Assembly: GCA_963971535.1 (NCBI GenBank)
Contig: OZ020591.1
Span: 19,658,290-19,722,289 of the forward strand
Source of the DNA: Notolepis coatsorum
Taxonomy: Eukaryota > Chordata > Actinopteri > Aulopiformes > Paralepididae
DNA length: 64,000 nt
Direction: 5' to 3'
The notes below the pieces were generated by a model. That model was not told where the DNA came from. It made no database searches and saw nothing but the letters and a program-made list of their open reading frames with translations. Both the position numbers and the translations under genes were made by a program. Within the stretch, counting starts at the first letter, position 1; each line of letters starts with the position of its first letter. Below, piece after piece: positions 4,683 through 63,166 of the stretch.

Positions 4683-5821
4683 ATTAAAGCCCTATTTGTT
4701 GCCTGTCGATTGCCCTTTCAGGTGACAAAATCCATTCAGCGGTTCTCGAGTTACATGCCGATATGTGAGGCGTGCCCCAAAGTACGCAAAAGTACACATT
4801 AGCACCCCCGACTCCCGGGGCTCTAGCTCCGTCAATCATTTGGCGATCTCGAAAATCTTTTCACAGGGTTGTAGCCAATGAGTGTGGCTTTCCAATGAGA
4901 CCCCATGATATGATAATTTGGGATCTAATACGGTCTCTATTGATCGATTTATGATAAAGAAAAGCCCCCTATATTTAAAGTAAGTTTGCTTGAAGTACCC
5001 TCTAAATGGGCCAACACTTATGGGACATAGTGTCTCTCTCTCTCTCTCTTTCTAAGTGTGATACAGAACAGGCAGATACAACCATGAGGAGACGCCTATT
5101 ATTTTCTTTATACATGTGCATACATTTATTTTTAGCTTTTTCTTAGCTTTTTTTGTACATGTAGATCTCTCTCATATTATATATTACTATACTATTATAT
5201 ATCTAATGTGTTATATGTCTAATGTATTCACCTCTATATATCTAACGTGTGTACATGGCATCAAATCAAAGTGTTGTCACTGTAGGCCTGCCTGGGCCCA
5301 GCCATTGGAATAACAAATACTATAAATTGGGCCTTTGTTCCAGGTGTGAATTGGTCTAGTGACATTGACATCACATTGCATTCTGGGAAGAAGTGTAGTT
5401 CTCTTTTCATTTAGCTGAATTCACTGAATTCTTTCAGACCCTCCTGCTGCAAATTGGTAAGGATTGTACCAGAATGTTTCATAGTACATTGTAATCAATC
5501 GGCTCGAATTTTACAATTGATGGCTTATTTTGAAGGTATGAAGCTGTAGTTTCATATTATGTAAAAAAAAATCGGAGGAGGAGCATAATCGGCTAGACTT
5601 CAGAGGGGTAACCATAGCCATGATGTAACCACTTAAACCACTTTGAAACAAAGTGGTTTAAGTCTAGAACTGTAGACCACTCTGGACTACACTGTGTTCT
5701 TAAACGATAAAACCCAGCTACATACCATTATGAACCTCTTGCATAGAAACTAAAGCTGAATAAAGTCACTTATCTTTCTCTCCTTCCTCTGACACTCTTC
5801 TCCATCACTATCTCCATCCAG
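4683..5821. other. Stretch without recognised gene, probably intronic
   Basis: Nothing identifiable apart from a short CT tract at 5032-5053. It leads into the pyrimidine-rich splice acceptor of the zinc-finger exon at 5822 and is likely intron of that gene. The first 300 bases may be an old repeat. Confidence 0.4.
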
Positions 5822-6978
5822 ATAGCTGTGTTGTCAGGCCTGGGAAGAAACCAGGAGACTTGGATGGAAGAAAAGGTCTCTGCTGTGACCAGTGTGGAAA
5901 AAGCATCAGTTCAAAGATGAATCTCAATAAACACCAACGCATTCACACAGGAAAGAAACTCTACTCCTGTGACCAGTGTGGGAAGAGCTTTAGGCATCGG
6001 AGTATTCTGCAATCACACCAGAGAATTCACACCGGAGAGAAGCCCTACTCCTGTGACCAGTGTGGGAAGAGCTTTAGTCATAAAAATTGTCTGCAAACAC
6101 ACCAGAGAATTCACACAGGAGAGAAGCCCTACTCCTGTGACCAGTGTGAGAAGAGCTTTAGTCGACTGTCAAATCTGAAATCACACCAGAGAATTCACAC
6201 CGGAGAGAAGCCCTACTCCTGTGACCAGTGTGGGATGAACTTTAGTCGACTGAGTAGTCTGAAATCACACCAGAGAATTCACACAGGATGGAAGCCCTAC
6301 TTTTGTGACCAGTGTGAGAAGAGCTTTACTCAATCGAGTAGTCTGAAATCACACCAGAGAATTCACACAGGAGAAAAGCCCTACTCCTGTGACCAGTGTG
6401 GGAAGAGCTTTAGTCAATTGAGCAGTCTGAAAGGACACCAGATAATTCACACAGGAGAAAAGCCCTACTCCTGTGACCGGTGTGGGAAGAGCTTTATTCA
6501 ACTGGGTAATCTGAAAACACACCAGATAATTCACACAGGAGAAAATCCATACTCCTGTGACCAGTGTGGGAAGAGCTTTAGTCAACCGAATAATCTGAAA
6601 ACACACCAGAGAATTCACACAGGAGAGAAGCTCTATTCTTGTGACCAGTGTGGGAAGAGCTTTAGTCAATTGAGTAGTCTGCAATCACACCAGAGAATTC
6701 ACACAGGAGAGAAGCCCTACTCCTGTGACCAGTGTGGGAAGAGCTTTAGGCGACTGGATAGTTTGAAATTACACCAGAGAATTCACACCGGAGAGAGGCC
6801 CTACTCCTGTGACTGGTGTGGGAAGAGCTTTAGGCGACTGGATGGTTTGAAATCTCACAAAATAATCCACACAGGAGAGAAACCATACTCTTGTCACCTG
6901 TGTGGACAAAGCTTTCGTCAGCCGTCTAGTCTTAAATCCCACAAGAGAATTCACACAGGAGAGAAACCCTACTTCTGA
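5822..6978 (+). CDS. Tandem C2H2 zinc-finger protein, terminal exon, 13 fingers
   Basis: A probable nuclear DNA-binding factor. The exon encodes 13 consecutive C2H2 fingers (CX2C-X12-HX3H), the first starting near 5881 and the last ending near 6957, mostly joined by canonical TGEKP linkers. Most fingers begin [10 protein letters not shown], so the array has grown by local duplication. A strong acceptor, a long pyrimidine tract ending tctccatccag, lies at 5821. The frame is open from 5822, so the first codon is split and coding continues from an upstream exon not seen here. The open frame has no ATG near its 5' end, and 5860 is a TTG codon, so the true start must be elsewhere. A KRAB-like or other effector domain is not visible. 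The array ends at a TGA (6976-6978) exactly where the first Cys of a 14th finger is expected. Likely a gene or a recent pseudogene of the large fish zinc-finger family. Confidence 0.8.
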
Positions 6979-9478: not shown

Positions 9479-10174
9479 TATTGTCTTCATTGGTATTCTA
9501 TTAAAGGAATGGATGTTCCTTTATATGAATTTATCATATTTAGTGGTTTTTCTACCATCTTAACTGCTTGTGGGTTCCTGGGAATTGTAGAGCAACCTGT
9601 TGCACAAGTAACTATTTTGTCATCATTGTGTGTATATTGGTGAGTAATAGCTGTAGTATTGATGACACTATGAAAACATTCCAGGATTGGAATCAATTCA
9701 CTTCCAATCAATTCAAAATCCAAACAAATATTTACTTGTCATTAGGTTGGATTGTAAAACCTTCATGACAAAAGTTGTACAATATTTTAACACATTCTCA
9801 TTAGAATGTATGATATGCTACTAATATGGATGAATTGTAAGGGTCAAGATAAGTAGGAAGGTGTGAATTGATGTCTTAGAAGTAAACTATCTCAGAAGTA
9901 TGAAAATGAAATAAACCATTACATTTTAACCTACTTTGTATGAAAGGCTTCATCTTCTGAGTGCAACAATGATAATTTTTTGAAAATGATACGCCATTGA
10001 CTAAAAACACCTCTTCAAACAATATCAGAAATAATAAAGAAATAAAATCTTATACTACTACCTATCTTGCTAATATGTCTATACTACGATGCACTCAGAG
10101 TGTAACAGTCAAGCTTGATATTATTTGACGAACAATGCCACTGACCCTTAGTTGCCACAGATGTACCTCCTAGT
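9479..10174. other. AT-rich intergenic stretch, nothing recognised
   Basis: Only short frames without domains (9449-9768). No repeat termini seen before the parvovirus-like block. Confidence 0.4.
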
Positions 10175-10221
10175 GGCGTGTATATTTTCCCTAACGGAGT
10201 TGCACTTCCGCGTTCGGTTTG
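10175..10221 (+). repeat. Outer 47-bp inverted repeat, left copy
   Basis: Exact reverse complement of 14505-14551. It may be the outermost part of the viral terminal repeat or the terminal repeat of an unrelated mobile element. No convincing target duplication is visible outside it. Confidence 0.8.
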
Positions 10222-10234
10222 CCCCTGCCTAGGA

Positions 10235-10422
10235 GTGTGGGAGGGCCTAGGAGGGGGAAAGGACATGTGGCACTGCAGGAGCAAGGACATTGGACGAGAG
10301 GAGGAAAAGGGGAGGGATTTGCAAGGTCAGTCACAGGATGCCCACATGAGGCTAGTTAAGGCTTCATTACTAGAATGAAATCGTGACATTGAGTAATGAG
10401 GGGGTGTGTGCATGTGACGTAG

Positions 10423-10452
<30 letters not shown>
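10235..10452 (+). repeat. Inner inverted repeat, left copy (candidate parvoviral ITR)
   Basis: About 205 bases up to the CT tract match the reverse complement of 13740-13944 with essentially no differences by eye. GC-rich at its outer end (gtgtgggagggcctagg). It lies beyond the 3' end of the capsid gene, as a parvoviral terminal repeat should. Confidence 0.75.
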
Positions 10453-10461
<9 letters not shown>

Positions 10462-10612
10462 GTCTCTCTCTCTCTCTCTGTCTCTCTCTCTCTCTCTGTC
10501 TCTCTTTCTCGCTCTCTCTCTCTCTCTGTCTCTCTCTCTCTCTATCTCTGTCTCTCTTTCTCGCTCTCTCTCTCTCTCTCTCTGTCTCTCTGTCTCTCTC
10601 TCACTCTCTCTC
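10426..10612. repeat. (CT)n-rich microsatellite
   Basis: An interrupted CT/GTCTCT tract between the candidate terminal repeat and the capsid 3' region. The matching place in the right arm (13723-13754) has a much shorter GA tract. The apparent frame here is low-complexity and not coding. Confidence 0.95.
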
Positions 10613-11031
10613 TCTGAATACAGTCTATGGTTAGTTTATGTAAGATGGCAGATGTCTTCTAATATGCCCTCTTTGACATGCTGACGTGGCCTTATTAAAT
10701 GAATGTTATTGTGAATAGGATACAGACGAATACCTTTGCGTTAATTATTCTTAATTGAAGGACAATGACATATCTATGCAGCCCATTACGGTGTGTGATT
10801 TTTACATTATTATATTGCCATCTTGGGGCCTGTAATCTGATATGGCCCTCTTTGACATGATGACATGTCTTATTAAATGACCCTTATTGTGAATAAGATA
10901 CAGACGAATACCTGTCTTATTAAATGACCCTTATTGTGAATAAGATACAGACGGATACCTTTGCGTTTAATTATTCTTTATTGAATGACAATGACATATT
11001 TAGGTATCACATTACATTGTATGATGTTACA
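10613..11031 (-). repeat. Capsid 3'-untranslated region, duplicated, with poly(A) signal
   Basis: Downstream of the capsid stop on the minus strand lies AATAAA (plus-strand 10977-10982), about 50 bases past the stop. A block of roughly 180-200 bp that includes the last capsid codons is present twice in tandem, with a further 40-bp internal duplication near 10870-10955. The whole region is the reverse complement of 13263-13632. Confidence 0.7.
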
Positions 11032-12603
11032 TTAATATGTTGCCATCTTGGGTCCTGTGATTTGATCCCTCTTCCAGTATTGTGCGTTCTGGGCGACGAC
11101 AGAGGGGGTGATACCGCCTGCAACTAGGTTCAGACCCCCCGGGCCCGGGGCATTGGAAATGTACCCTGCCCAGTTCTGTCTTGTGTGAGGCGTCTTCTTA
11201 ATCTTCCATAATATGGATACCTTTACTGTGCAGCTGACAGTTTGTTTCATCTCAGACATACCATCAACACCTAAGGTGGGGAGAACCCGAAAGAATACCT
11301 GTGGAGGCGGGCGTCTACATACTGGAACCCCCAGATTGGAACATGTTACGTCACTGTTGGCAGGGGCCGGTTTGAATATAGGTCTGTTCAGGTCTATCTC
11401 TCTGGTATCGGTATTGCCCACTCTACCTCTTGCACCGTCGCTATCCGCTGACCCATACGTCTTTACCTCGTCCTTACCGGCTACCTTTTGTACCCTAATT
11501 GCTTGGGTGAGCCCTGCATGATGTGAGATACGTCCCGAGAATGTTGGATCTAATTTGTATAGTGCGCTCGTACTATTGTTGTTACGTTCATTCATCAGAA
11601 GCGTGGTGTTCTCAAATAGCATGGGGAACGTGTTCTCTGCTTCTAACTCTCCGACGACAGCGGTCCCTGTGCCCATCATGCCAATGCACTCTGAGGGATT
11701 AGCCCTTCCCGGTAGAAAGGAGCATAGCTTCTGAGGATCCTCTGTCATGATTCTATTGAGGTCGTCACTATTACATCTGTAGGCGTAATCAGGCTGCCAT
11801 GGTGGGGTGGTATAAATGTTGTTCTGAACCCATTCACATTCCAGACCGTACCTCACCTTGATGTTCCCCTGCTGGTTGATAGCCTCCACTACACCTGCCT
11901 CTATCACTGGCACACTACAATCCATCTGGCCGGCCTTCATAGATGTAATGGGAGAATTCCACCACACGTTAAACATCCTCTTGGGTGGCGCTTGTATGAT
12001 GTTATCGGCCCAGTTCGTTTTCTTGTCCCATTCCTTGTTATGCGAGTCATATTCCATCTGATATCCTGTCATGACAAAGGGGAATTCGTCATTAGTCCTC
12101 CTGGCAACGGCGATGAGACCCGTAGGCATAGGGGTTGTAACCTTGGTTCCACCTATGTCGGTCTCCGTCACGCACTGGAAGTTTGCATACTCTGCTTCCA
12201 CTATCATAGGCTTGTAACAGTCATAGTCCATTAATAGCCTTTGTAGATCATTGGGCTGCCACTGTCCCTTCATGCTGTTATAGTCCGCATAGTACCAGTC
12301 ATACTTCACAGATCCCTGTGTATGTACGGCTCCATTGGGCTGTTTGGGGACGGTGTTTGATTTCCATGACTGCATCGTGCTTTCATTTAAGAGTCTTTCA
12401 TTGTGGAAGAAGAACCTCCTTGTGGATGTTGTGATCACATGTCCGTCTCTCTCATTCCATATAGCCCGATTTACAATCAGGACCGGAGGTGGTATCGCAC
12501 CTCCACCTCCTGCCGGTTCACCTACAGGTCCCCCTACAGGATAAGGGGCAACATCAACAACATCCGTACCCTCAGGCCCGGTATCGACCTGAGTAATATC
12601 CAT
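11032..12603 (-). CDS. VP: Parvovirus-like capsid protein (VP), intact 523-codon frame
   Basis: A structural protein expected to form the icosahedral shell. The frame runs uninterrupted from ATG at 12603 to TAA at 11032. The N-terminus is glycine/proline-rich (about residues 24-42), like the flexible glycine-rich N-terminus of parvoviral VPs. Near residues 100-130 it carries the parvoviral capsid signature: a W-x-Y-x-D-x-N segment (WYYADYN) followed by P-x-D-x-QRLLxDY and a proline-containing basic strand. No phospholipase A2 domain (no HDxxY motif) is visible, which recalls the Hamaparvovirinae (chapparvovirus-like viruses), but that placement is inference. TATA-containing repeats lie upstream and AATAAA lies downstream. 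With no stop or frameshift, integration is either recent or the frame is constrained. A distinct N-terminal exon joined by splicing cannot be excluded. Confidence 0.78.
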   Translation of the reverse strand: MDITQVDTGPEGTDVVDVAPYPVGGPVGEPAGGGGAIPPPVLIVNRAIWNERDGHVITTSTRRFFFHNERLLNESTMQSWKSNTVPKQPNGAVHTQGSVKYDWYYADYNSMKGQWQPNDLQRLLMDYDCYKPMIVEAEYANFQCVTETDIGGTKVTTPMPTGLIAVARRTNDEFPFVMTGYQMEYDSHNKEWDKKTNWADNIIQAPPKRMFNVWWNSPITSMKAGQMDCSVPVIEAGVVEAINQQGNIKVRYGLECEWVQNNIYTTPPWQPDYAYRCNSDDLNRIMTEDPQKLCSFLPGRANPSECIGMMGTGTAVVGELEAENTFPMLFENTTLLMNERNNNSTSALYKLDPTFSGRISHHAGLTQAIRVQKVAGKDEVKTYGSADSDGARGRVGNTDTREIDLNRPIFKPAPANSDVTCSNLGVPVCRRPPPQVFFRVLPTLGVDGMSEMKQTVSCTVKVSILWKIKKTPHTRQNWAGYISNAPGPGGLNLVAGGITPSVVAQNAQYWKRDQITGPKMATY

Positions 12604-12737
12604 TTTGATTACACCATCGGTCGACTGAGGGGTCTGAGATATTGCCGTTTCTTCATGTCCTACCGTCTCACCGCGTATCCTTTCGTAGGATGTCCGGTGT
12701 TTTTGGTGGGATCATCCTCTTCTCCCCTCCTCCGATT

Positions 12738-13020
12738 GGACTATCCTGTAAAGTGTGATGGCCGGTGGAATGTATCGTGTCTTCTAAACTCCCTGCCACT
12801 GTAGGGAGTATCCCCGCCTCCCCTAGCCTTATATGGTTTCCTCCTCCAATTGGCCTATCCTCTACAGTGGGACGGTCGGTGGAATGTATCATGTATTCTA
12901 AGATCCCGGACACTAAAGGAAGTATCCCGCAACTCCTATCTTTATACGGTTCCTCCATGCGATTGGCCTATCCTGTACAGGGTGACGGCCGGTGGAATGT
13001 ATCATGACTTCTAAACTATC
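12738..13020 (-). promoter_or_regulatory. Tandem 114-bp repeats with TATA motifs upstream of VP
   Basis: Two full units (12738-12851, 12852-12964) and a partial third (12965-13020) share the word ggtggaatgtatc. On the minus strand, the two full units carry TATA-like motifs (catataaggc and cgtataaaga) pointing toward VP. A duplicated VP promoter is the simplest reading. A 96-codon minus-strand frame over the repeats looks incidental. Confidence 0.6.
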
Positions 13021-13115
13021 TTAAAAACGATCACCCAACAGAGAACCATGATAGTCAAAAACAGTACACTATTGATGATGAATGTAACAGTCTGATATAA
13101 TTATATCACACAAAA

Positions 13116-13262
13116 CAGAACTGGGCAGGTTACATTCCCAATACCCCGGGACCGGGGGGTCTGTACCTAGGTGCAGGCGGTCAACCTCCATCTATCGTCC
13201 GCCAGAACGTAAAATATTGGGAGGATAATCAGATTACAGGACCCAAGATGGCAACATATTAA
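13116..13262 (+). pseudogene. VP: Second parvovirus-like VP C-terminus (49 codons including stop)
   Basis: Plus-strand bases encode a capsid C-terminus that aligns end to end with the last 48 residues of the minus-strand VP. Both finish QITGPKMATY and stop. I count about 25 nucleotide differences over 147 positions, many of them replacing residues, whereas the 3' region that follows is identical for at least 70 bases. It is a fragment: nothing capsid-like precedes 13116. It seems to come from a related but distinct virus or paralogue. Confidence 0.7.
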
Positions 13263-13587
13263 TGTAACATCATACAATGTAATGTGATACCTAAATATGT
13301 CATTGTCATTCAATAAAGAATAATTAAACGCAAAGGTATTCGTCTGTATTTTATTCACAATAAGAGTCATTTAATAAGACATGTCAGCATGTCAAAGAGG
13401 GCCATATCGGATTACAGGACCCAAGATGGCAACATAATAATGTAACATCACACACCGTAATGGGCTGCATAAATATGTCATTGTCATTCAATAAAGAATA
13501 ATTAAACACAAAGGTATTCATCTGTATCTTATTCACAATAAGAGTCATTTAATAAGACATGTCAGCATGTCAAAGAGGTCATATTAG
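13232..13587 (+). repeat. Two 178-bp tandem units covering the VP end and 3' region
   Basis: Each unit starts at the word gattacaggacccaag (13232 and 13410) and contains an AATAAA (13312-13317 and 13490-13495). The duplication therefore copies the last VP codons with the poly(A) signal. The left arm has the same arrangement. Confidence 0.75.
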
Positions 13588-13632
13588 AAGACATCTGCCA
13601 TATTCCATAAACCAACCATAGACTGTATTCAG

Positions 13633-13693
13633 TAGTGGTGCCATGTACCCATCTGCATGAGCCTTATATAGATGTAAAGCAGTGAGCCACAAC
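13633..13693 (-). promoter_or_regulatory. Inverted copy of the NS1-type promoter
   Basis: The reverse complement of 13633-13680 repeats 14005-14055, including the TATA box (plus-strand 13663-13671). Here it faces the VP 3' region instead of an NS1 frame, a junction that requires rearrangement. Confidence 0.6.
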
Positions 13694-13717
13694 CACTAAC
13701 CACACACACACACATGC

Positions 13718-13727
<10 letters not shown>

Positions 13728-13749
<22 letters not shown>

Positions 13750-13944
13750 AGAGAACCTACGTCACATGCACACACCCCCTCATTACTCAATGTCACGATT
13801 TCATTCTAGTAATGAAGCCTTAACTAGCCTCATGTGGGCATCCTGTGACTGACCTTGCAAATCCCTCCCCTTTTCCTCCTCTCGTCCAATGTCCTTGCTC
13901 CTGCAGTGCCACATGTCCTTTCCCCCTCCTAGGCCCTCCCACAC
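13728..13944 (-). repeat. Inner inverted repeat, right copy (candidate parvoviral ITR)
   Basis: Reverse complement of 10235-10452, with the microsatellite part shorter. It is followed at 13950-13990 by a very GC-rich stretch with short palindromes (ggccggcc, gggcccc) that could be a hairpin end. Confidence 0.75.
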
Positions 13945-14017
13945 CCCACCCTGTGCGCGCAAGGCGCGGCCGGCCATAGATTGATGGATGTGCGGGCCCC
14001 TGGCCAAAGCTTTACAT

Positions 14018-14026
14018 CTATATAAG
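14018..14026 (+). promoter_or_regulatory. TATA box upstream of the NS1-like fragment
   Basis: ctatataag lies about 50 bases before the ATG at 14075 and just inside the terminal-repeat region, the usual place for the left parvoviral promoter. Confidence 0.55.
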
Positions 14027-14074
14027 GCTCATGCAGATGGGTACATTGCACGACTCCTCCGTAAGCCTATAACC

Positions 14075-14392
14075 ATGTCTGGAATATGTTATCTGATCAA
14101 ATGGGGCCGCCAATCTCCCAATTCCTGGATGGATGGTGTACGATTTAGCTCAACGCAGGCCGCTGGTAGGAATAGATTCAATTTCGAGGAGGACTTGGAG
14201 ATCATACTAAGGATACATGGTATCGAGAGATGGTGTTATTCCAACGAGATAAATAGATACAGAATGTATCACACACATATCGTCATCGATGGTACCGACT
14301 GTTCAGCATCTTATCTGCCAATCACGTTACTCCTAACAAACTGGTTAAGCTTGGCGACTCTTTCGAAGTCACTCTCTTTCGAAGTTGGTTAG
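14075..14392 (+). pseudogene. NS1: NS1-like N-terminal fragment (HUH nickase start)
   Basis: The frame from ATG 14075 (also open from an upstream ATG at 13988) encodes a charged N-terminus and then YHTHIVID near 14270-14294. That H-x-H between hydrophobic residues is like the metal-binding HUH motif of parvoviral replication proteins. NS1 normally continues for about 600 residues through a catalytic tyrosine and an SF3 helicase. Here the similarity ends near 14325 and the frame stops at 14392 in unrelated sequence. The identification depends on the promoter, the position and one motif, so it is less certain than VP. Confidence 0.5.
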
Positions 14393-14504
14393 GGTTAGTT
14401 GGTTAAGGTTATGGTTAGTTGGTTAGGGTAACAGCCTGCTGGCGCGATTGTTAGGAGTAACGCGATTGGCGCTGAAAAAAACGTCAGTGGCCAATCAGAT
14501 CGCG

Positions 14505-14551
14505 CAAACCGAACGCGGAAGTGCAACTCCGTTAGGGAAAATATACACGCC
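14505..14551 (-). repeat. Outer 47-bp inverted repeat, right copy
   Basis: Exact reverse complement of 10175-10221. Between it and the NS1-like fragment, a separate 15-bp inverted repeat lies at 14329-14343 and 14448-14462 and encloses ggttagggtta-like words. Confidence 0.8.
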
Positions 14552-14570
14552 TCCTGGTGACATGCTGTTC

Positions 14571-14632
14571 ACAATCTGTAAGTCGCTTTGGATAAAAGCC
14601 TCAGCTAAATGACTAAATTGTAATTGTAAAAT
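14571..14632 (+). mobile_element. L2-type LINE 3'-end scrap
   Basis: The tail gtaagtcgctttggataaaa followed by gctaaatgactaaa is the same 3' end seen after L2 coding sequence at 22725-22772. Confidence 0.6.
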
Positions 14633-47427: not shown

Positions 47428-47476
47428 GGGTAACTAGTGTAATATTAATATAGTGTTATTAATATTAAAATGGCCT

Positions 47477-50400
47477 ATGATGAACACTCCACGAAACGGT
47501 CCTCCTAACGTAGAACGCCCGCAGCGCAGACGACAGCCACCTCAGTACTTAGAGGATTACGCTGTCAGTCAACTACCTAGCCTTCGACAAACGGTAAACG
47601 CGGTAAAAGTAGAAAGTAAAATTATGTCTGACCTTAACGACCAGGTTTCCCCGACCACAGAGGCCCTAGTGGGTTCTAATGTAACTGACCAAGCTCACGG
47701 TGGGGACCAGGAGGGAGCTGACATGCCTTTACCCCCCGCCAATACCGAAGAAGTAGTCCCCGACCAGCCCCGGGAGGAAGACAACCCTACAGAGAGAGAA
47801 CTCTGCACGGAAGAAGAGGAGGAGAGCGCCGAGGAAATAGAGCTCCAGGACTCCCCAACGAGCGGCTCACCCAGGAGCGGCTCACCTCTACAACCGTCTT
47901 CCCCCAGCGAAGCGGAGAGGATGCTACAACAGGCGTTCCTCGTCAGCCTGACAGCCTCTACCGAACGCGATCGACTTCAGGGTGAACGCGATCGACTCCA
48001 AGCACAGACGCTTAGCGAGCGCGAACATTCTACCATTGAAAGAGAACGCCTCCAAGCGCAGCAACGGAGCGAAGAAGAGCGCATACGCCTGGAGATGAGA
48101 CGCCTTCAGACGGAAGAGAATATGGCAAGAGACCGAGCAGACACCCAGCGTGCCGCTGACGGTGCCCAAAGAGAGGCAGAGCGCGACCTCGCTCTCATCC
48201 AGCGCGAAACCGAGCGCGACAGACTACAGGGCGAGCGCGACAGACTACAAGCCGAGCGCGACAAGCTACAAGCGCAACTAATGGAGCAGCTGATCCTCAA
48301 GGCAACACCCTCTCCCTCCGCCAGGGGTTCAAGGAACTCGTTGAGACAACAGTCAAGGGCAGCGTCTCCTAACCGAGCAAGCGACCCTGAACTTGACCAA
48401 CAGACCAAGCCTATACCCCCCGCAGACCCCCTTCCCAGACCGGTCCAAGCGAGACCCAGCTACAAGGAAGGAGCGGCATACACTGCGGAGAAGCTAAATA
48501 AACGACTACAGGATCTAGAGGACCTGATAGAAGAAGAAGAGGGAGAGGAGGAGAACCAAGCCCGACGACAGCACAGTACTCCACCGGACCAGGAGGTCCA
48601 GTACAGCCCAGGCTATACCCCCGCGGCGCTGCGCTACAGACCCCCGACTCTATTCACGGGTGAGCACGACGCACGACCAGCCCCGAGGAATAGCACCTGG
48701 ACCAGCGGGCCATGGTACCCTGTCGGTACCAGCCCACAGAGAGGCGCAAGAGGAGACTCGCCTAGGAGGTCTCTCGCCCAACGCTCGCCGATGTATCAGC
48801 CATCCACGGCGTCATACATTGCCACGCCGTCGTTTCCAGACTTCACCTATGAGAATCGAGCACAGTACACGGAGCTCCGGATGTGCTTAGAGACAATGAT
48901 GGTGGATGTCGCTGATGAACGCCACAAGTATGCAATATTACTGAAGCACCTGAAAGTACCGCGACCGCACAATATAGCGCTAGCCTATGCCACCTCTACG
49001 ACCCCATACACCGCGGCTCTAGCAGCGCTGGACCAGAGATATGGACGTATATGGGATTACGTAATCCAAGAGATAAGGCATATTGATCGCCTACCCCCAG
49101 CAACAGACAATCGCTCATTAGACGACCTGTCAATCAAAGTGCAGTCCCTGGTAGGGATGCTGGGAGCGCAACGGGAAAAGGGCATGCATGAGCTATACGC
49201 CAACTCTAACGTCGAGAGGATTCTAGAGAAGCTGCCACCCGCAAGACAAGAGCGTTTTAAGCGGCAGAGAGACCACCGTGATCCTAACGGTCCCGAACCA
49301 TCCCTCCTTGATCTAGCCGACTTCCTGGCGAGAGAAGTCAGCAGCTTACGACTGGATACGTTCGTGCGGAGCACGCCAAGCTCCAGAGAGGGACCCAGGA
49401 GAATAAACGATGGAAGAAGATCGGTGACTGTCATGCACCAATCAGAGTCAGTACCGAGCAGTAAGAGCCACAGTACCCCCTCGAGAAAAGAGAAGTGGAA
49501 GATGGTGTGCCCCTACTGTGAGAAAGAACACTGGCTGTCACAATGTGACCTGTTCACAAAGATGAATGCAGAAGAAGTGAGTCAATGGATAAAGTCCAAC
49601 AGGCGCTGTTACCGATGTGCGCGCAGTCACATGGCAGCCGAATGCCGCCTAAAGAAAAGGTGCAGTCGGTGTGACGGAGCCCATCTAGATATACTACACG
49701 ACAGTAACAGAAGACGGCCTTCACCTGCACCATCGAGCGGCACCAAGGCAAGTGTCATGTACATTGACCCCGCCAGCAGCAGCGGCGCCCAAGTGCTCTT
49801 AAAGGTAGTCCGTGTGACATTGAGCTACCAAGATAAAGTCATGGACACTTACGCCGTCATTGATGACGGGTCAGAGAAGACCCTTCTGCTCGCGTCCGCT
49901 GCGGCCCAGCTGGGACTGCGGGGGAGCGAGAACCAAATGACGATTCGGACAATAAGAAGAGATTTAAAGACGATAAAGGGCGAGAATGTCTCCTTCACTA
50001 TCGCAGCAAGCGGGCAGCCAGAGCGACGGTATAGGATTACAAATGCTTTCACCAGCCAAGAAATAGGACTATCGCAGTACACCTACCCCATCGCCAAGCT
50101 GATGGATAAATATGTGCACCTGCGTCAACTACCTATCCCGCTCATAGACGGCGCCACCCCGACCCTGCTGATAGGCTCCGACCATGCAGAACTCATAGTC
50201 CCGATTGACCGGGTCCATACAGGACCCCGAGGCTGTCCTGCAGCAGTCGAGACCCGCCTAGGGTGGACACTACAAGGCCCCCTCGCTAAATCTCTCAACC
50301 GAACAGCAGCCACTAGCTGCCTCCACTCCAGAACGACAGAAGGAGACACCACACTCCTGCAGCATGTCGAGAAGAAAATTGACTGGCGACGTCGTGCGCT

Positions 50401-52201
50401 GCTCCGCGCCTCCCTGATCAAAGACGGCTTTGATCTCCGGCAGCGGGCCAGCAGCGACCGCCCAGTATTGCGCAACCTCAACCCAGAGGTCGCAGAGGAC
50501 CCAGCAGCAGATGAAGAGGTCCGACACAGTGTGAAGAACAGTTTCTACGTGGACAACTGTTTACAAAGCGTTTCGACTCAAGAAGAAGCCGAGGCTCTCC
50601 TAATCAAGCTACGCGCCTCCCTGATCAAAGGCGGCTTTGATCTCAGGCAGTGGGCCAGCAGTGACCCGCACGTATTGCGCAGCCTCTCCCCCGCGGACAA
50701 GGCTGCCAGCAGCGAGACCTGGATGGCGACCATCCCAGGAGAAGCCCAAGAAATGACACTAGGACTAGTCTGGCGCTTCAAAACAGACTCGCTCCACTAT
50801 AGACACAAACCCCTGACTCCAGAGCAGGGAAGGTCGACGGCGACACCGACCACCAGACGGAGTGTGTACAGAACACTCGCCAGACAATATGACCCGTTGG
50901 GATGTATTCTACCTTACACCACCAGGGCAAAGATGATTGTACGAGCACTATGGGACAAGGACCAGGGCTGGGACGACCCAATACCCGCACACCTTGCCTC
51001 CACATGGAGAGAGTGGGAGACGGAACTCCGCTCACTCCCAGGCGTCAATATACGCCGCAGCTACTTCCCACCCACGGTGAGGCCAGAGACATGCAAGATG
51101 GATCTACACGTCTTCAGCGATGCCTCCGAAGTAGCCTATGGATCGGTGGCCTACTTGCGTGCCCAAGAGAAGGGAGGAGAGATACACACCGCTTTCATCC
51201 TGGCTCGCTCAAGAATAGCCCCACGAAAGCAACAATCTATCCCGCGTCTAGAGCTCTGCGCAGCCCTAGCAGGAGCGCATCTAGCCACGTTAATCCAACG
51301 TGAACTCACCATTCCGGTGCACAGAACAATCTTGTGGTCAGATTCCACGACAGTACTCACATGGATCAAGTCTGATTCATGCAGATACAAAGTCTTCGTG
51401 GGAGTCAGAGTCACCGAGATTCAAGAGTTAACAGAAGCAGCGAGCTGGCGGTATGTGGACACCAAACACAACCCAGCTGACGTCATCACCCGGGGAATGT
51501 CCCTGGATGACCTCACCCGTCGCAACATCTACAGTGACGGACCAGAATTCCTCAAGCTCCCGGAAGAAGAGTGGCCTACGCCCACCCCACGGGAAGCAAG
51601 TAAAGAGGAGGCTGAGAACAAGAAACCTATGTTCTGTGGACTGAGCACAGTCGCCTCCACAGACCCCAACATAGATGACTGCATTACCCTACAGAGTGCG
51701 CAGCTAAAGACATTCCTGTGGCACCACCCAGAGATTCAGTCCACCACTGACATTTCAGCAGCTGACTACGAAGAAGCAGAACTTCTTCTACTACAACGAG
51801 CCCAGAGAGACTCGTTCCCTGATGAGCTAGACTGTCTACAGGGAGGAAAGCCCGTCCCATCAGACAGCAGACTGCTCCACCTGGCACCCGAGAGTGACGC
51901 CCATAATCTCATCAGAGTGGGTGGTCGCCTGCGGAGAGCCCCCAATCTACCGGATGACATTAAGTACCCGATAGTCTTGAACAGCCGACACAAGGTCACA
52001 GAGCTGATCATAAAGAAATACGACGAGGATGTACACCACGCAGGAGCAGAGAGAGTCTTCGCGGAGATCAGACGTCGCTATTGGATACTTCAAGGAAGAG
52101 AAGCGGTGCGACGCTTCCAGCGAACCTGTCTAGACTGCCGAAAGTGGCGCGCGCAGCCCAGCATACCACGGATGGCTGACCTACCCCCCTGTCGCCTCTG
52201 A
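47477..52201 (+). CDS. gag-pol: BEL/Pao gag-pol polyprotein, open to an in-frame stop in integrase
   Basis: The frame is open from 47453, and its first ATG is at 47477. In order: acidic linker; long Arg/Gln/Glu coiled coil (47910-48290); BEL gag domain (about 48840-49260); zinc knuckles CPYC...C (from 49507) and CYRC...CSRC (49603-49690); aspartic protease with IDDGSEKT near 49857; RT; RNase H (FSDAS near 51110, WSDST, KHNPAD); integrase HHCC zinc domain (51990-52150). The RT is abnormal. Between TLLQHVEKK and FYVDNCLQS (50546-50557) the fingers and most of the palm, including the first catalytic Asp, are missing, and a 78-bp segment is present twice (50402-50479 and 50609-50686). Reverse transcription by this copy is therefore not expected. 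A TGA at 52199-52201 separates it from the integrase core, which continues in the same frame. Not a host gene. Confidence 0.9.
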   Translation: MMNTPRNGPPNVERPQRRRQPPQYLEDYAVSQLPSLRQTVNAVKVESKIMSDLNDQVSPTTEALVGSNVTDQAHGGDQEGADMPLPPANTEEVVPDQPREEDNPTERELCTEEEEESAEEIELQDSPTSGSPRSGSPLQPSSPSEAERMLQQAFLVSLTASTERDRLQGERDRLQAQTLSEREHSTIERERLQAQQRSEEERIRLEMRRLQTEENMARDRADTQRAADGAQREAERDLALIQRETERDRLQGERDRLQAERDKLQAQLMEQLILKATPSPSARGSRNSLRQQSRAASPNRASDPELDQQTKPIPPADPLPRPVQARPSYKEGAAYTAEKLNKRLQDLEDLIEEEEGEEENQARRQHSTPPDQEVQYSPGYTPAALRYRPPTLFTGEHDARPAPRNSTWTSGPWYPVGTSPQRGARGDSPRRSLAQRSPMYQPSTASYIATPSFPDFTYENRAQYTELRMCLETMMVDVADERHKYAILLKHLKVPRPHNIALAYATSTTPYTAALAALDQRYGRIWDYVIQEIRHIDRLPPATDNRSLDDLSIKVQSLVGMLGAQREKGMHELYANSNVERILEKLPPARQERFKRQRDHRDPNGPEPSLLDLADFLAREVSSLRLDTFVRSTPSSREGPRRINDGRRSVTVMHQSESVPSSKSHSTPSRKEKWKMVCPYCEKEHWLSQCDLFTKMNAEEVSQWIKSNRRCYRCARSHMAAECRLKKRCSRCDGAHLDILHDSNRRRPSPAPSSGTKASVMYIDPASSSGAQVLLKVVRVTLSYQDKVMDTYAVIDDGSEKTLLLASAAAQLGLRGSENQMTIRTIRRDLKTIKGENVSFTIAASGQPERRYRITNAFTSQEIGLSQYTYPIAKLMDKYVHLRQLPIPLIDGATPTLLIGSDHAELIVPIDRVHTGPRGCPAAVETRLGWTLQGPLAKSLNRTAATSCLHSRTTEGDTTLLQHVEKKIDWRRRALLRASLIKDGFDLRQRASSDRPVLRNLNPEVAEDPAADEEVRHSVKNSFYVDNCLQSVSTQEEAEALLIKLRASLIKGGFDLRQWASSDPHVLRSLSPADKAASSETWMATIPGEAQEMTLGLVWRFKTDSLHYRHKPLTPEQGRSTATPTTRRSVYRTLARQYDPLGCILPYTTRAKMIVRALWDKDQGWDDPIPAHLASTWREWETELRSLPGVNIRRSYFPPTVRPETCKMDLHVFSDASEVAYGSVAYLRAQEKGGEIHTAFILARSRIAPRKQQSIPRLELCAALAGAHLATLIQRELTIPVHRTILWSDSTTVLTWIKSDSCRYKVFVGVRVTEIQELTEAASWRYVDTKHNPADVITRGMSLDDLTRRNIYSDGPEFLKLPEEEWPTPTPREASKEEAENKKPMFCGLSTVASTDPNIDDCITLQSAQLKTFLWHHPEIQSTTDISAADYEEAELLLLQRAQRDSFPDELDCLQGGKPVPSDSRLLHLAPESDAHNLIRVGGRLRRAPNLPDDIKYPIVLNSRHKVTELIIKKYDEDVHHAGAERVFAEIRRRYWILQGREAVRRFQRTCLDCRKWRAQPSIPRMADLPPCRL

Positions 52202-52231
52202 CTCGGCGACAAGCCATTCCACTCCACAGGC

Positions 52232-53143
52232 ATGGACTGTTTTGGCCCGTTGTATATAAAGAGAGGAAGAGGAACCGAGAAGCGGTGGGGTATTGTATTC
52301 AAATGCATGACCACCAGAGCGATCCATATCGAACTCCTTCCGACCATGAGCACAGACTCATTCCTTATGGCCTTCCGAAGATTCACATCACGGAAAGGAA
52401 AACCGTCTACATTGTTGTCTGATCACGGGACAAACTTCAAAGGCGGAGAAAGAGAGCTGAGAGAGAGCTTCCAAGCTATGGGCCCAGAACTTAAGACCCA
52501 CCTCGCTCCATCCCAGATTGACTTCCAGTTTAATCCCCCGAACGCACCCCACTTCGGTGGAACCTGGGAAAGAGAAGTACGTTCTATAAAGACAGCCCTG
52601 TACGCCGTGCTTGGGGCCCAGACTGTGGCGGAGGAAGTCCTAATGACAGTCCTCACGGAGATCGAGGGAGTATTGAACTCCAAGCCCCTTGGCTACGTCT
52701 CCAGTGATGTAGCAGATGTCGACCCAGTCACCCCCAACACACTCTTAATGGGGCGGCTGGACCCCGCGCTACCCCAGACAATGTACAGGCCTGAAGAAGC
52801 GAACGGCCGAAGAATGTGGAGGTACAGTCAAGTGCTAGCTGACAAGTTTTGGAGCAGCTTCCTACTCCACTACCTACCGTCTCTACAGACCCGCCAGAAG
52901 TGGGTAAAAGAGAGAGACAATTTGACAGAAGGAACAGTCGTCATGATTATCGACCAGTCACTACCCAGAGCTATGTGGCCGGCTGGCCGCGTAAGCAAAG
53001 TGATCACCGGTGCCGATGGCAAGGTCCGAGCAGCTGAAGTGCTCGTCCAAGGGCGAACTTACACACGACCCGTGGCGAGGCTAATAGAACTGCCCCGACT
53101 CCCAGACACTATCGATGATGACCATGACCCCATGACTTTGTGA
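52232..53143 (+). CDS. pol: BEL/Pao integrase core and C-terminus, in frame after the stop
   Basis: The same reading frame as the preceding polyprotein resumes after TGA 52199-52201; the first ATG is 52232. It carries the DDE integrase core, with Asp in MDCFGP, Asp in LLSDHGTNF and Glu in GGTWEREV, followed by the BEL-type C-terminal domain (WSSFLLHYLPSLQTRQKW, then VARLIELPRLP). It most likely belongs to one polyprotein split by a point mutation and is not a separately expressed gene. It ends about 90 bases before the 3' LTR. Confidence 0.88.
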   Translation: MDCFGPLYIKRGRGTEKRWGIVFKCMTTRAIHIELLPTMSTDSFLMAFRRFTSRKGKPSTLLSDHGTNFKGGERELRESFQAMGPELKTHLAPSQIDFQFNPPNAPHFGGTWEREVRSIKTALYAVLGAQTVAEEVLMTVLTEIEGVLNSKPLGYVSSDVADVDPVTPNTLLMGRLDPALPQTMYRPEEANGRRMWRYSQVLADKFWSSFLLHYLPSLQTRQKWVKERDNLTEGTVVMIIDQSLPRAMWPAGRVSKVITGADGKVRAAEVLVQGRTYTRPVARLIELPRLPDTIDDDHDPMTL

Positions 53144-60595: not shown

Positions 60596-60716
60596 CAGCG
60601 TGTTGTTACTTTCCTATTAAGAGAGTAGTGTGAAATAGTGACCTGTCCCTTTGTTACTTTCAAAAGCAATGGTTACACCAAATTACATTTAAATGATTGT
60701 ATGCCCTTCTTTCTAG

Positions 60717-63166
60717 ACTCCATGGCCTTACAGCTGTTTATCTGTGAAGAGGAGGTTCCCCCTGAGCAGCAGGAGAGGAGCCCCAGTCTGGTCCAGGAGG
60801 AGCCAGAGCGCCTACAGATTAAAGAGGAACAGGAGGAACTCTGGATCAGTCAGGAGGGAGAGGAGCTTCCTGTCTCTGTGAAGAGTGAACATGATGAAGA
60901 GAAACCTCAGTCCTCACAGCTCAGTCAAACCCAGGACACAGAGCCCCTCCAGATTAAAGAGGAACAGGAGGAACTGTGTCAAGATCTAGAGGAGGCTGAT
61001 GGCTCCAAGATTACCTTACAACCTATGAAATGTGAAAATGAAGGTGAGAACACTCTGTCCTCACAACTCAGCCAAAACCGGGACCCCGAGCAGATTAAAG
61101 ATGAACTCGATCAAGGGCTGGAAGAAGCTGATCTCTCCAAGATCACAGTTCACCCAGTGAAACCATTTGTTTGTTCAGTTTGTGGAAAAGGATTCAGTAG
61201 GAAGGCAGTTCTGACGACACACACTATAACTCATACTGGAGAGAAACCATTTGTTTGTTCAGTTTGTGGGAAAGGGTTCAGTATGAAGGGATATCTGAAG
61301 ACACACATGAGAACTCACACTGGAGAGAAACCATTTAGCTGTTCAGTTTGTGGGACAGCGTTAAAGTACCAGAAAAATCTGAAGACACACATGAGAATTC
61401 ACACAGGAGAGAAACCATTTAGCTGTTCAGTTTGTGGGACAGCGTTCAAGTACCAAACAAGTCTGAAGACACACATGATAATTCATACTGGAGAGAAACC
61501 ATTTGTTTGTTCAGTTTGGGGAAAAGGATTAAGTACAAAGCCAAATCTGAAGACACACATGATAATTCATACAGGAGAGAAACCTGTCCCTGTGAAGAGT
61601 GAACATGATGAAGAGAAACCTCAGTCCTCACAGCTCAGCCAGACCCAGGACACAGAGCCCCTCCAGATTAAAGAGGAACAGGAGGAACTGTGTCAAGATC
61701 TAGAGGAGGCTGATGGCTCCAAGATGACCTTACAACCTATTAAATGTGAAAATGAAGGTGAGAACACTCTGTCCTCACAACTCAGCCAAAACCGGGACCC
61801 AGAGCAGATTAAAGATGAACTAGATCAAGGGCTGGAAGAAGCTGATCTCTCCAAGATCACAGTAGACCCAGTGAAATGTGAAGATGGTCAAGAGAACGCT
61901 CTGCCCTTCCAGCCTCTTCAAACCCAAAGGGAGAAAAACAGAGAAGCATACTCTTTACCCAGCACCTCAACTGAACACATGAAAACAGAACCTGAAGGAG
62001 AGGACTGTGGAGTAGCGGAACTAACCAGTAACTTAGATCCAGCGGGTGATTTAGAACCAACTAGAGATAGCCAGCCTCTCTCTTCAGACTGTTCTCTAAC
62101 TGAGACTGATGACAGTGATGATGACAGTTCTGGAACTGAGACTGATGACGGTGATGATGACAGTTCTGGAGCTGAGACTGATGACGGTGATGATGCCAGT
62201 TCTGGAGCTGAGACTGATGATAGCGATGAATGGAAGGAGAGTGGAGGTCCAGGTTTGATGGCAGTCAAACAAAAGAAGACACAGAAAATACAAACGTTGT
62301 CTAACAGGCCTGGGTTCAGCAAGAAGAGAGATCTGAAGATACACATAAAAAATCATACCAGAGTGAAACTATTTGGTTGTTGCGTTTGTGGGAAAGGGTT
62401 CAGTATGAAGGGAAATCTGAAGAAACACATGCAAATTCATACTGGAGAGAAACCATTTGTTTGTTCATTTTGTGGAAAAGGATTCAGTAGGAAGGGAGTT
62501 CTGAAGACACACACTATAACTCATACTAAACCATTTGTTTGTTCAGTTTGTGGGAAAGGGTTCAGTACGAAGGGAGATCTGAAGACACACATGAGAACTC
62601 ACACTGGAGAGAAACCATTTAGCTGTTCAGTTTGTGGGAAAGGGTTTAGTACAAAGCCAAATCTGAAGACACACATGGGAACTCATACTAAACCATTTGT
62701 TTGTTCAGTTTGTGGAAAAGGATTAAGTAGGAAGGGAGTTCTGAAGACACACATGAGAACTCATACTGGAGAGAAACCATTTAGCTGTTCAGTTTGTGGG
62801 AAAGCGTTTAGTACAAAGCCAAATCTGAAGACACACATGATGATAATTCATACAAGAGAGAAACCATTTAGTTGTTCAGTTTGTGGGAAAGGGTTCACGT
62901 ACCAATCACATCTGAAGACACACATGCTAATTCATACAGGAGAGAAACTATTTATTTGTTCAGTTTGTGGGAAAGGGTTCAATGACCAATCACATCTGAA
63001 GACACACATGAGAATTCATACTGGAGAGAAACCATTTAGTTGTATAGTTTGTGGGAAATTGTTCAATATCCAATCAAATCTGACGGGACACATGAGATTT
63101 CACACAGGAGAGAAGCCATTTATTGTTCAGTTTGTGGGAAAGGAGTCAATGACCAATCACATCTGA
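60717..63166 (+). CDS. Tandem C2H2 zinc-finger protein, terminal exon with duplicated acidic module
   Basis: A probable nuclear DNA-binding factor of the large fish zinc-finger family. An acceptor (cccttctttctag) ends at 60716. The frame is open upstream only by chance (a GTG at 60638), and the first exon ATG is 60722. Order: PPEQQE- and IKEEQEEL-rich acidic leader; acidic module 1 (60877-61163); five fingers (61165-61583); acidic module 2, a near copy of module 1 (61588-61878); TETDD-type 12-residue acidic repeats (62099-62230); nine further fingers (62368-63115). Oddities: finger 5 of the first array has Trp (TGG 61517-61519) in place of its second Cys; two inter-finger linkers in the second array lack Gly-Glu (near 62527 and 62692); one finger has HX4H spacing. 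A one-base loss near 63120 shifts the frame inside the last finger, giving a stop at 63166; the ancestral frame ran to the TGA at 63208-63210. Coding may still be functional with fewer fingers. Confidence 0.8.

Follow-up and report, generated by a model that had tools for sequence, protein, structure and literature searches.

Linked parvoviral DNA inside a transposable element of Notolepis coatsorum suggests a parvovirus with its capsid and replication genes on two segments

The window analysed here, a stretch of 64,000 nt from the genome of Notolepis coatsorum (OZ020591.1, 19,658,290-19,722,289), contains parvoviral DNA at positions 10232-14317. With a probability of roughly three in four, this DNA entered the germ line not long ago, when linked DNA of a bipartite parvovirus, one that carried a PLA2 domain in its full-length capsid protein VP1, inserted into a pre-existing miniature inverted-repeat transposable element (MITE). 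Sister copies in the same genome suggest that the virus held its capsid (VP) and replication (NS1) genes on two DNA segments. Coordinates refer to the window unless a contig label is given; C plus a number denotes a contig of the window's own assembly (G000), and L plus a number an extracted locus.

The genome searched was that of the window itself (3.42 Gb); it gave three MHC class I matches, as against 0 of 14 control genomes, which indicates a jawed vertebrate. In this genome VP matched at least 79 pieces and NS1 at least 52, both being lower bounds as 78 of 146 VP and 81 of 133 NS candidates were scored. Grouped at a clustering distance of 12 kb, after eight of the 52 NS pieces (shorter than 36 aa) had been dropped, these matches form at least 68 viral loci, of which 39 hold VP alone, 21 NS alone and 8 both genes. 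A search with the Parvo_NS1 family returned 20 matches, all at NS1 loci already found, and added no new NS1 locus. A single integration with local rearrangement was also considered and is ruled out by the copies elsewhere in the genome.

Within this family, each of the two genes has a hairpin-bounded unit of its own, about 3.7 kb long for VP and 3.8 kb for NS1, and the two kinds of unit have their ends in common. On C24, a VP unit (3688 bp between junction centres) is followed by an NS unit (3801 bp) and a second VP unit, and the two inner joints are palindromes of 547 and 579 bp. The C24 palindrome folds at -212.8 kcal/mol, as against -62.5 for shuffled sequences, and at their left ends the VP and NS units agree at 97.9% over 381 bp. 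C7 carries a head-to-tail array of three NS units, spaced 3655 bp apart. Among the NS1 copies that reach the C terminus, 13 of 15 have no same-strand VP within 10 kb downstream, and the remaining two have VP only past hairpin arms. Such arms separate VP from NS at seven of the eight mixed loci (the window, C24, C1:42M, C1:143M, C6:124M, C4427 and C8:191M); the eighth, on C43, is an old, decayed copy that has lost the joint. Like the Acheta domesticus segmented densovirus (AdSDV), the family thus keeps its NS and VP cassettes apart, on segments whose termini are the same. Separate units, with arms between them at mixed loci, are the pattern expected of a bipartite genome.

The viral proteins match those of parvoviruses. 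The window VP frame (11032-12711, minus strand) runs for 559 codons without a stop, with a first methionine at 12603 that would give a VP2-like protein of 523 aa. It matches Pfam Parvo_coat at E 3.7e-11 and solved parvoviral VPs in the PDB down to E 7.4e-05 (1.7e-4 in a profile search), and the parvoviral origin and intact capsid-like frame proposed in the initial annotation are thereby borne out by profile and structure-database searches alike. Several full-length VP matches fall within longer frames of up to 825 codons, and the 825-codon VP1 frame on C24 carries the PLA2 domain (7.5e-23). NS1 measures 504 aa from its methionine; it matches Pfam Parvo_NS1 at 6.3e-51 over residues 239-479, and the best solved matches, at about 4e-35, include chains of Rep68 and Rep40, which are proteins of adeno-associated virus (AAV). 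Its motifs are HTH at residue 66 and YFLEK at 134 (both pattern matches), GVANAGKT and IIWEE, of which the HTH and YFLEK patterns are presumably HUH-type motifs; the N-terminal domain has no Pfam match. An NS1 with an SF3 helicase, a parvoviral capsid protein and palindromic hairpin termini, the last seen in the C24 junctions and their fold energy and in the paired arms of L009 and L010, are all features of Parvoviridae. The customary union of NS and VP in one monopartite genome was not found, nor is it kept by AdSDV. The PDB ranking of NS1 and the PLA2 in VP1 may be read only as pointers to an affinity with Parvovirinae. A protein-primed DNA polymerase, the hallmark of Bidnaviridae, had no match among the long frames of the C24 units (NS1, VP and a 257-aa frame). 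The 257-aa frame lies on the opposite strand of the NS segment (L027:6802-7572, plus strand) and is open in all seven distinct copies compared (11 rows, overlapping loci among them).

In the window, the viral DNA begins with a truncated terminal hairpin arm (10232-10424), continues through a TC microsatellite at the inner arm edge (10425-10615) and the 3' end region of the capsid segment with its short repeats (10614-11031, minus strand) into the VP frame, and on the 5' side of that frame holds three copies of a 113/114-nt tandem repeat (family D3, 12726-13041). An 83-nt reversed fragment of the NS segment (13024-13106, minus strand, 83%) marks a fusion point. It is followed by an inverted copy-back of the VP 3' end (13106-13754, plus strand), which includes the last 52 VP codons and continues into the right hairpin arm (13760-14005), where VP and NS segments join. 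Beyond this arm the start of the NS segment (14009-14317, plus strand), 308 of 309 positions identical to the C24 NS segment, supplies 81 viral NS1 codons from 14075, including the HTH motif. The inner inverted repeats span 10232-10462 and 13717-13947 (231 nt, 99% identity), and more inverted blocks occur between 10614-11188 and 13106-13632. A 50-nt stretch is present twice at 94% identity, on opposite strands facing apart (13631-13680 and 14009-14058), with one TATA box facing the VP frame (13662-13670, minus strand) and another ahead of NS1 (14019-14027, plus strand); we infer a promoter function for both copies. The VP end on the other strand (13104-13259, plus; G000:C23:19671393-19671548) corresponds to VP residues 507-558 at 71% identity. 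No viral pieces were found in the rest of the 64 kb, outside 10000-14600. The insertion appears young, since its arms show a single difference over 193 sites and its NS piece a single difference from that of C24 over 309.

The initial annotation had described nested inverted repeats of 47 and about 205 bp, a second capsid end, an NS1-like start and two opposed promoter copies, all of which are present at this locus, the repeats at the lengths given here. Its interpretation, either a recombined dimer-like intermediate or two collapsed integrations, holds in part. A hairpin-derived inverted recombinant agrees with the structure, which recurs at nine loci, and because eight of these are further loci with the same fused structure the arrangement is beyond chance. 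Two collapsed integrations do not agree with it, as a viral hairpin arm joins the VP unit to the NS piece, all in one insert within one MITE.

The outer pair of repeats (10175-10222 and 14504-14551, 48 nt, 100% identity), which had been counted as part of the viral element, has a different origin. Viral hairpins were ruled out for this pair, as the repeats are the ends of a high-copy 316-bp MITE. The stretch 14318-14551 is repeated throughout the genome with at least 81 matches (40 scored of 1679 candidates), and a full copy on C32 measures 316 bp with its own 9-bp duplication on either side. In the window, the left MITE part with a 9-nt filler at the viral junction (10176-10231, matching the MITE up to 10222) and the right part (14318-14550) are enclosed by a 9-bp target-site duplication directly outside the MITE ends (10167-10175 and 14551-14559; flanks compared by eye, one mismatch between the copies). 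Many copies, the same terminal inverted repeats and a target duplication thus identify the outer repeats as those of a MITE. About 33 bp of the window MITE are replaced by viral DNA, and the viral insert has no target duplication of its own. Because the 9-bp duplication lies outside the MITE and the viral DNA inside it lacks one, the MITE most likely preceded the virus, and the viral DNA at 10232-14317 would have entered an existing element. No other viral locus among L005-L037 is framed by MITE ends; MITE matches at these loci were no more than short or weak, with 77% over 48 nt at L017 and, close to one edge of L037, pieces 25 to 33 nt long.

The capsid part of the insert belongs to a recurrent type of segment. 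At nine loci on nine contigs (the window, L009-L014, L018 and L033) VP leads into the 83-nt reversed NS piece and then into the reversed VP end, ungapped over 210 bp, and this snapback capsid segment, in the form seen in the window, has no PLA2. L015, L017, L019 and L020 carry the first fusion only, that of VP to the NS piece, and lie at the base of the double-fusion group in a midpoint-rooted VP tree, which points to fusion first and copy-back second. Snapback units at L009, L010, L011 and L018 measure 3691-3698 bp between their ends; apart from L012, treated below, the remaining units are incomplete at an end in the tiling. L009 and L010 each consist of a single snapback unit with a whole palindrome at either end, beside GA/TC tracts of host or viral origin. 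Compared with the full VP segment of C24, the inverted arm of the window (13106-13384) is 98.6% identical and the body (10614-12936) 90.3%, hence the window joins pieces of two lineages. At L018, the first 2.2 kb or so match the C24 full VP segment at 99-100%, with a lower 92.5% in the outermost 200 bp, and the 0.6 kb that follow are 100% identical to the L009 snapback segment. By these identities L018 is a clean crossover between full and snapback segment types, so the two would have replicated side by side. The same fusions at nine loci, together with this crossover, are consistent with spread as replicating DNA. Perhaps a bipartite lineage recently infected a jawed vertebrate and its PLA2-free copy-back capsid segment became a third stable type, with a TATA-bearing end on each side, under selection, recombining with full capsid segments, passing to offspring and spreading like a mobile element with the NS segment. 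This extension is tentative, and we hold it to be possible rather than probable.

VP and NS1 diverged mostly under purifying selection. Against the window copy, 20 VP pairs gave omega (the ratio of nonsynonymous to synonymous rates) of 0.20-0.42. Seven of the nine snapback copies were compared by codon and showed 18 synonymous and 22 nonsynonymous single-change codons, with 3 complex codons set aside. Neutrality is rejected for these seven (P 0.0011 when counted by sites, 0.006-0.016 when transitions are weighted), in counts that assume independent copies where the copies are not fully independent, and their VP is under purifying selection. NS1 pairs mostly gave omega of 0.16-0.48 (10 rows representing 9 copies), and the deep pair of C24 and C9 gave 0.26 at a synonymous divergence (dS) of 0.50. 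These ratios and codon counts indicate that the frames diverged mostly while in use.

Some further viral fragments accompany the family. L040 (G000:C4427:165600-167460) and L041 (G000:C8:88403600-88405660) are short units of about 1.8 kb, bounded by hairpins and free of any NS1 or VP frame; in one, VP and NS right ends are joined around a minisatellite, in the other VP ends around about 0.9 kb of other DNA, and by their sequence both look like defective genomes. Hairpin arms without a nearby VP or NS match occur at C1:79000042, C29:109237164, C29:119956130, C30:11319171 and C1:93057240 and are possibly solo hairpins. At G000:C6:124441218-124450049, VP-start and VP-end pieces in both directions adjoin an open NS1 frame. 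The window itself also contains a Pao/BEL retrotransposon with long open frames (47438-53143; the first with Peptidase_A17, 2e-47) and C2H2 zinc-finger gene pieces in tandem (5764-6978 and 60629-63166).

A mechanism can be proposed for these structures. Parvoviral NS1 nicks and unwinds hairpin ends; DNA with such ends can therefore be copied and packaged, and two genes can live on two molecules. In the present virus, a Rep-like NS1 with HUH-type motifs and an SF3 helicase would have replicated both segments from their common hairpins, and each segment would have been packaged singly. In germ-line nuclei, before or during integration, segments could have joined end to end at the hairpins to give the mixed arrays, with entry into the chromosome by end joining. 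The segment in the window may have formed in two steps, the first joining the VP gene to the central part of an NS segment and removing the PLA2-bearing start of VP1, and the second a copy-back that placed the same TATA-bearing end on both sides; nine loci or more now carry it. Lacking the VP1 start, such a snapback segment would need full segments to supply the PLA2 step.

Several observations weigh against a bipartite virus or against parts of this account. On C43 (L037, G000:C43:4313500-4319500), a decayed distant relative with NS1 at 46% and VP at 43-60% in pieces, the NS1 and VP pieces stand in line on one strand, 0.67 kb apart, and a monopartite ancestor is for this reason possible; the copy was not accepted as proof of one, its joint being lost. 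The separate units could also be deletion derivatives of a monopartite parent absent from the assembly. At 3425 bp between its ends the L012 snapback unit is shorter than the others, and unit length is therefore not strictly fixed. The window hairpin arms, which are truncated, fold no better than shuffled sequences. Close NS1 pairs vary, with 1 synonymous and 8 nonsynonymous changes between C24 and C1:42M, and the C21:11M NS1 contains a stop. The 257-aa frame gave no selection signal, no Pfam match and a sole PDB match at E 0.45, and the strand opposite it is likewise open. A scan of IMG/VR for an exogenous relative gave 5 pattern stretches with NS1, of which none was confirmed, and none with VP. 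The bipartite genome is read from integrated copies.

Alternatively, germline NS1 could have moved hairpin-bounded units without virions after a founding infection, in the manner of an intragenomic mobile element. This is compatible with a bipartite origin and would account for the number of loci (at least 68) as well as for the lone arms and short non-autonomous units, as open NS1 frames could act in trans. However, the purifying selection on VP between copies would be needless for a capsid-free element, the absence of a target duplication and the loss of about 33 bp of MITE in the window are as in end joining, and the 3691-3698 bp kept after rearrangement by L009, L010, L011 and L018 fit a packaging limit (L012 being shorter). 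We regard such movement as fairly unlikely. A monopartite parvovirus with NS1 and VP together, of which the separate units would be internal-deletion derivatives that kept the hairpins and were then integrated or amplified, is quite unlikely. The short defective units L040 and L041 and the C43 pieces in line speak for it, and parvoviruses besides AdSDV are described as monopartite in the available parts of the literature. Yet none of the 15 C-terminal NS1 copies runs into VP without intervening hairpin arms, the 20 Parvo_NS1 matches revealed no further NS1 locus, and both kinds of unit hold whole genes at similar length with common ends. By arithmetic, NS1, VP1, the 257-aa frame and hairpins would add up to a parent of about 6 kb, and none was seen in the assembly. 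Misassembled palindromes could in principle have produced the inverted arms and joined segments, as long palindromes are difficult to assemble and some loci lie on small contigs (C2597, C4427, C789), but such an artefact is very improbable given the ungapped fusion at nine loci on nine contigs, flanks that differ among the window and L009-L011 as far as compared, and the unique MITE joints of the window insert with the target duplication outside. Capture and carriage of the capsid gene by a MITE or Mutator-like (MULE-type) transposon is scarcely credible, for although perfect 48-bp terminal repeats and a 9-bp duplication enclose the viral DNA of the window, no other viral locus among L005-L037 is so framed and the MITE is of high copy number on its own.

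For a bipartite parvovirus as the source of the insert, the closest parallel is AdSDV, a bipartite cricket virus of Hamaparvovirinae placed in Parvoviridae (PMC10267136). According to the available part of its description, AdSDV has the same terminal hairpins on both segments and PLA2 in the VP segment, as in the present family, but its PLA2 is a separate non-structural frame and not fused in VP1, and its hairpins of 208 and 220 nt are not inverted repeats, whereas palindromes of about 500 bp are found here (PMC10267136). It also comes from a cricket, while the present family is known from integrated copies in a jawed-vertebrate genome and its NS1 has Rep68/Rep40 as best solved matches. Bidnaviridae likewise have two segments and a parvovirus-like capsid protein, but are described as having a protein-primed DNA polymerase where the NS segment here has a parvoviral NS1 (PMC10267136). 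Zander and salmon parvoviruses are likewise fish-associated, the former proposed as a new Parvovirinae genus and the latter unassigned; segmentation is not mentioned in the available text of their descriptions (PMC11357303). Endogenous parvoviral elements of vertebrates are also germline DNA, some with open frames, and the available parts of these reports do not mention a segmented organisation (PMC9707805, PMC11089739, PMC11521997). In the tapeworm Echinococcus multilocularis, more than 20 densovirus loci with NS and VP information occur, mostly as head-to-tail concatemers in repeat regions, and segmentation is not claimed in the available text (PMC6880638). Snapback genomes of AAV are also copy-back products; those of the 3' kind include the capsid region and led to higher levels of capsid protein, but as far as the source goes they are defective particles of a virus stock, whereas here one form with fixed breakpoints occurs at nine loci and recombines (PMC8235507).

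Until AdSDV was described in 2023, a single-segment genome defined parvoviruses, as far as the literature available in part indicates. No bipartite parvovirus of a vertebrate or fish was found, by title and start of abstract, among the papers listed from the open PubMed Central (PMC) literature, which is not proof of absence in print, and none other than AdSDV was found in the open PMC literature searched, seen in part. If the present account is true, a two-segment parvovirus in the vertebrate germ line suggests that a second line of the family became segmented, here with PLA2 retained in VP1. The numerous copies, among them full segments, a crossover, snapbacks and short defective units, would document the replication and recombination of a split single-stranded DNA genome, and with this record the origin of genome segmentation could be tested by sequence in related species.

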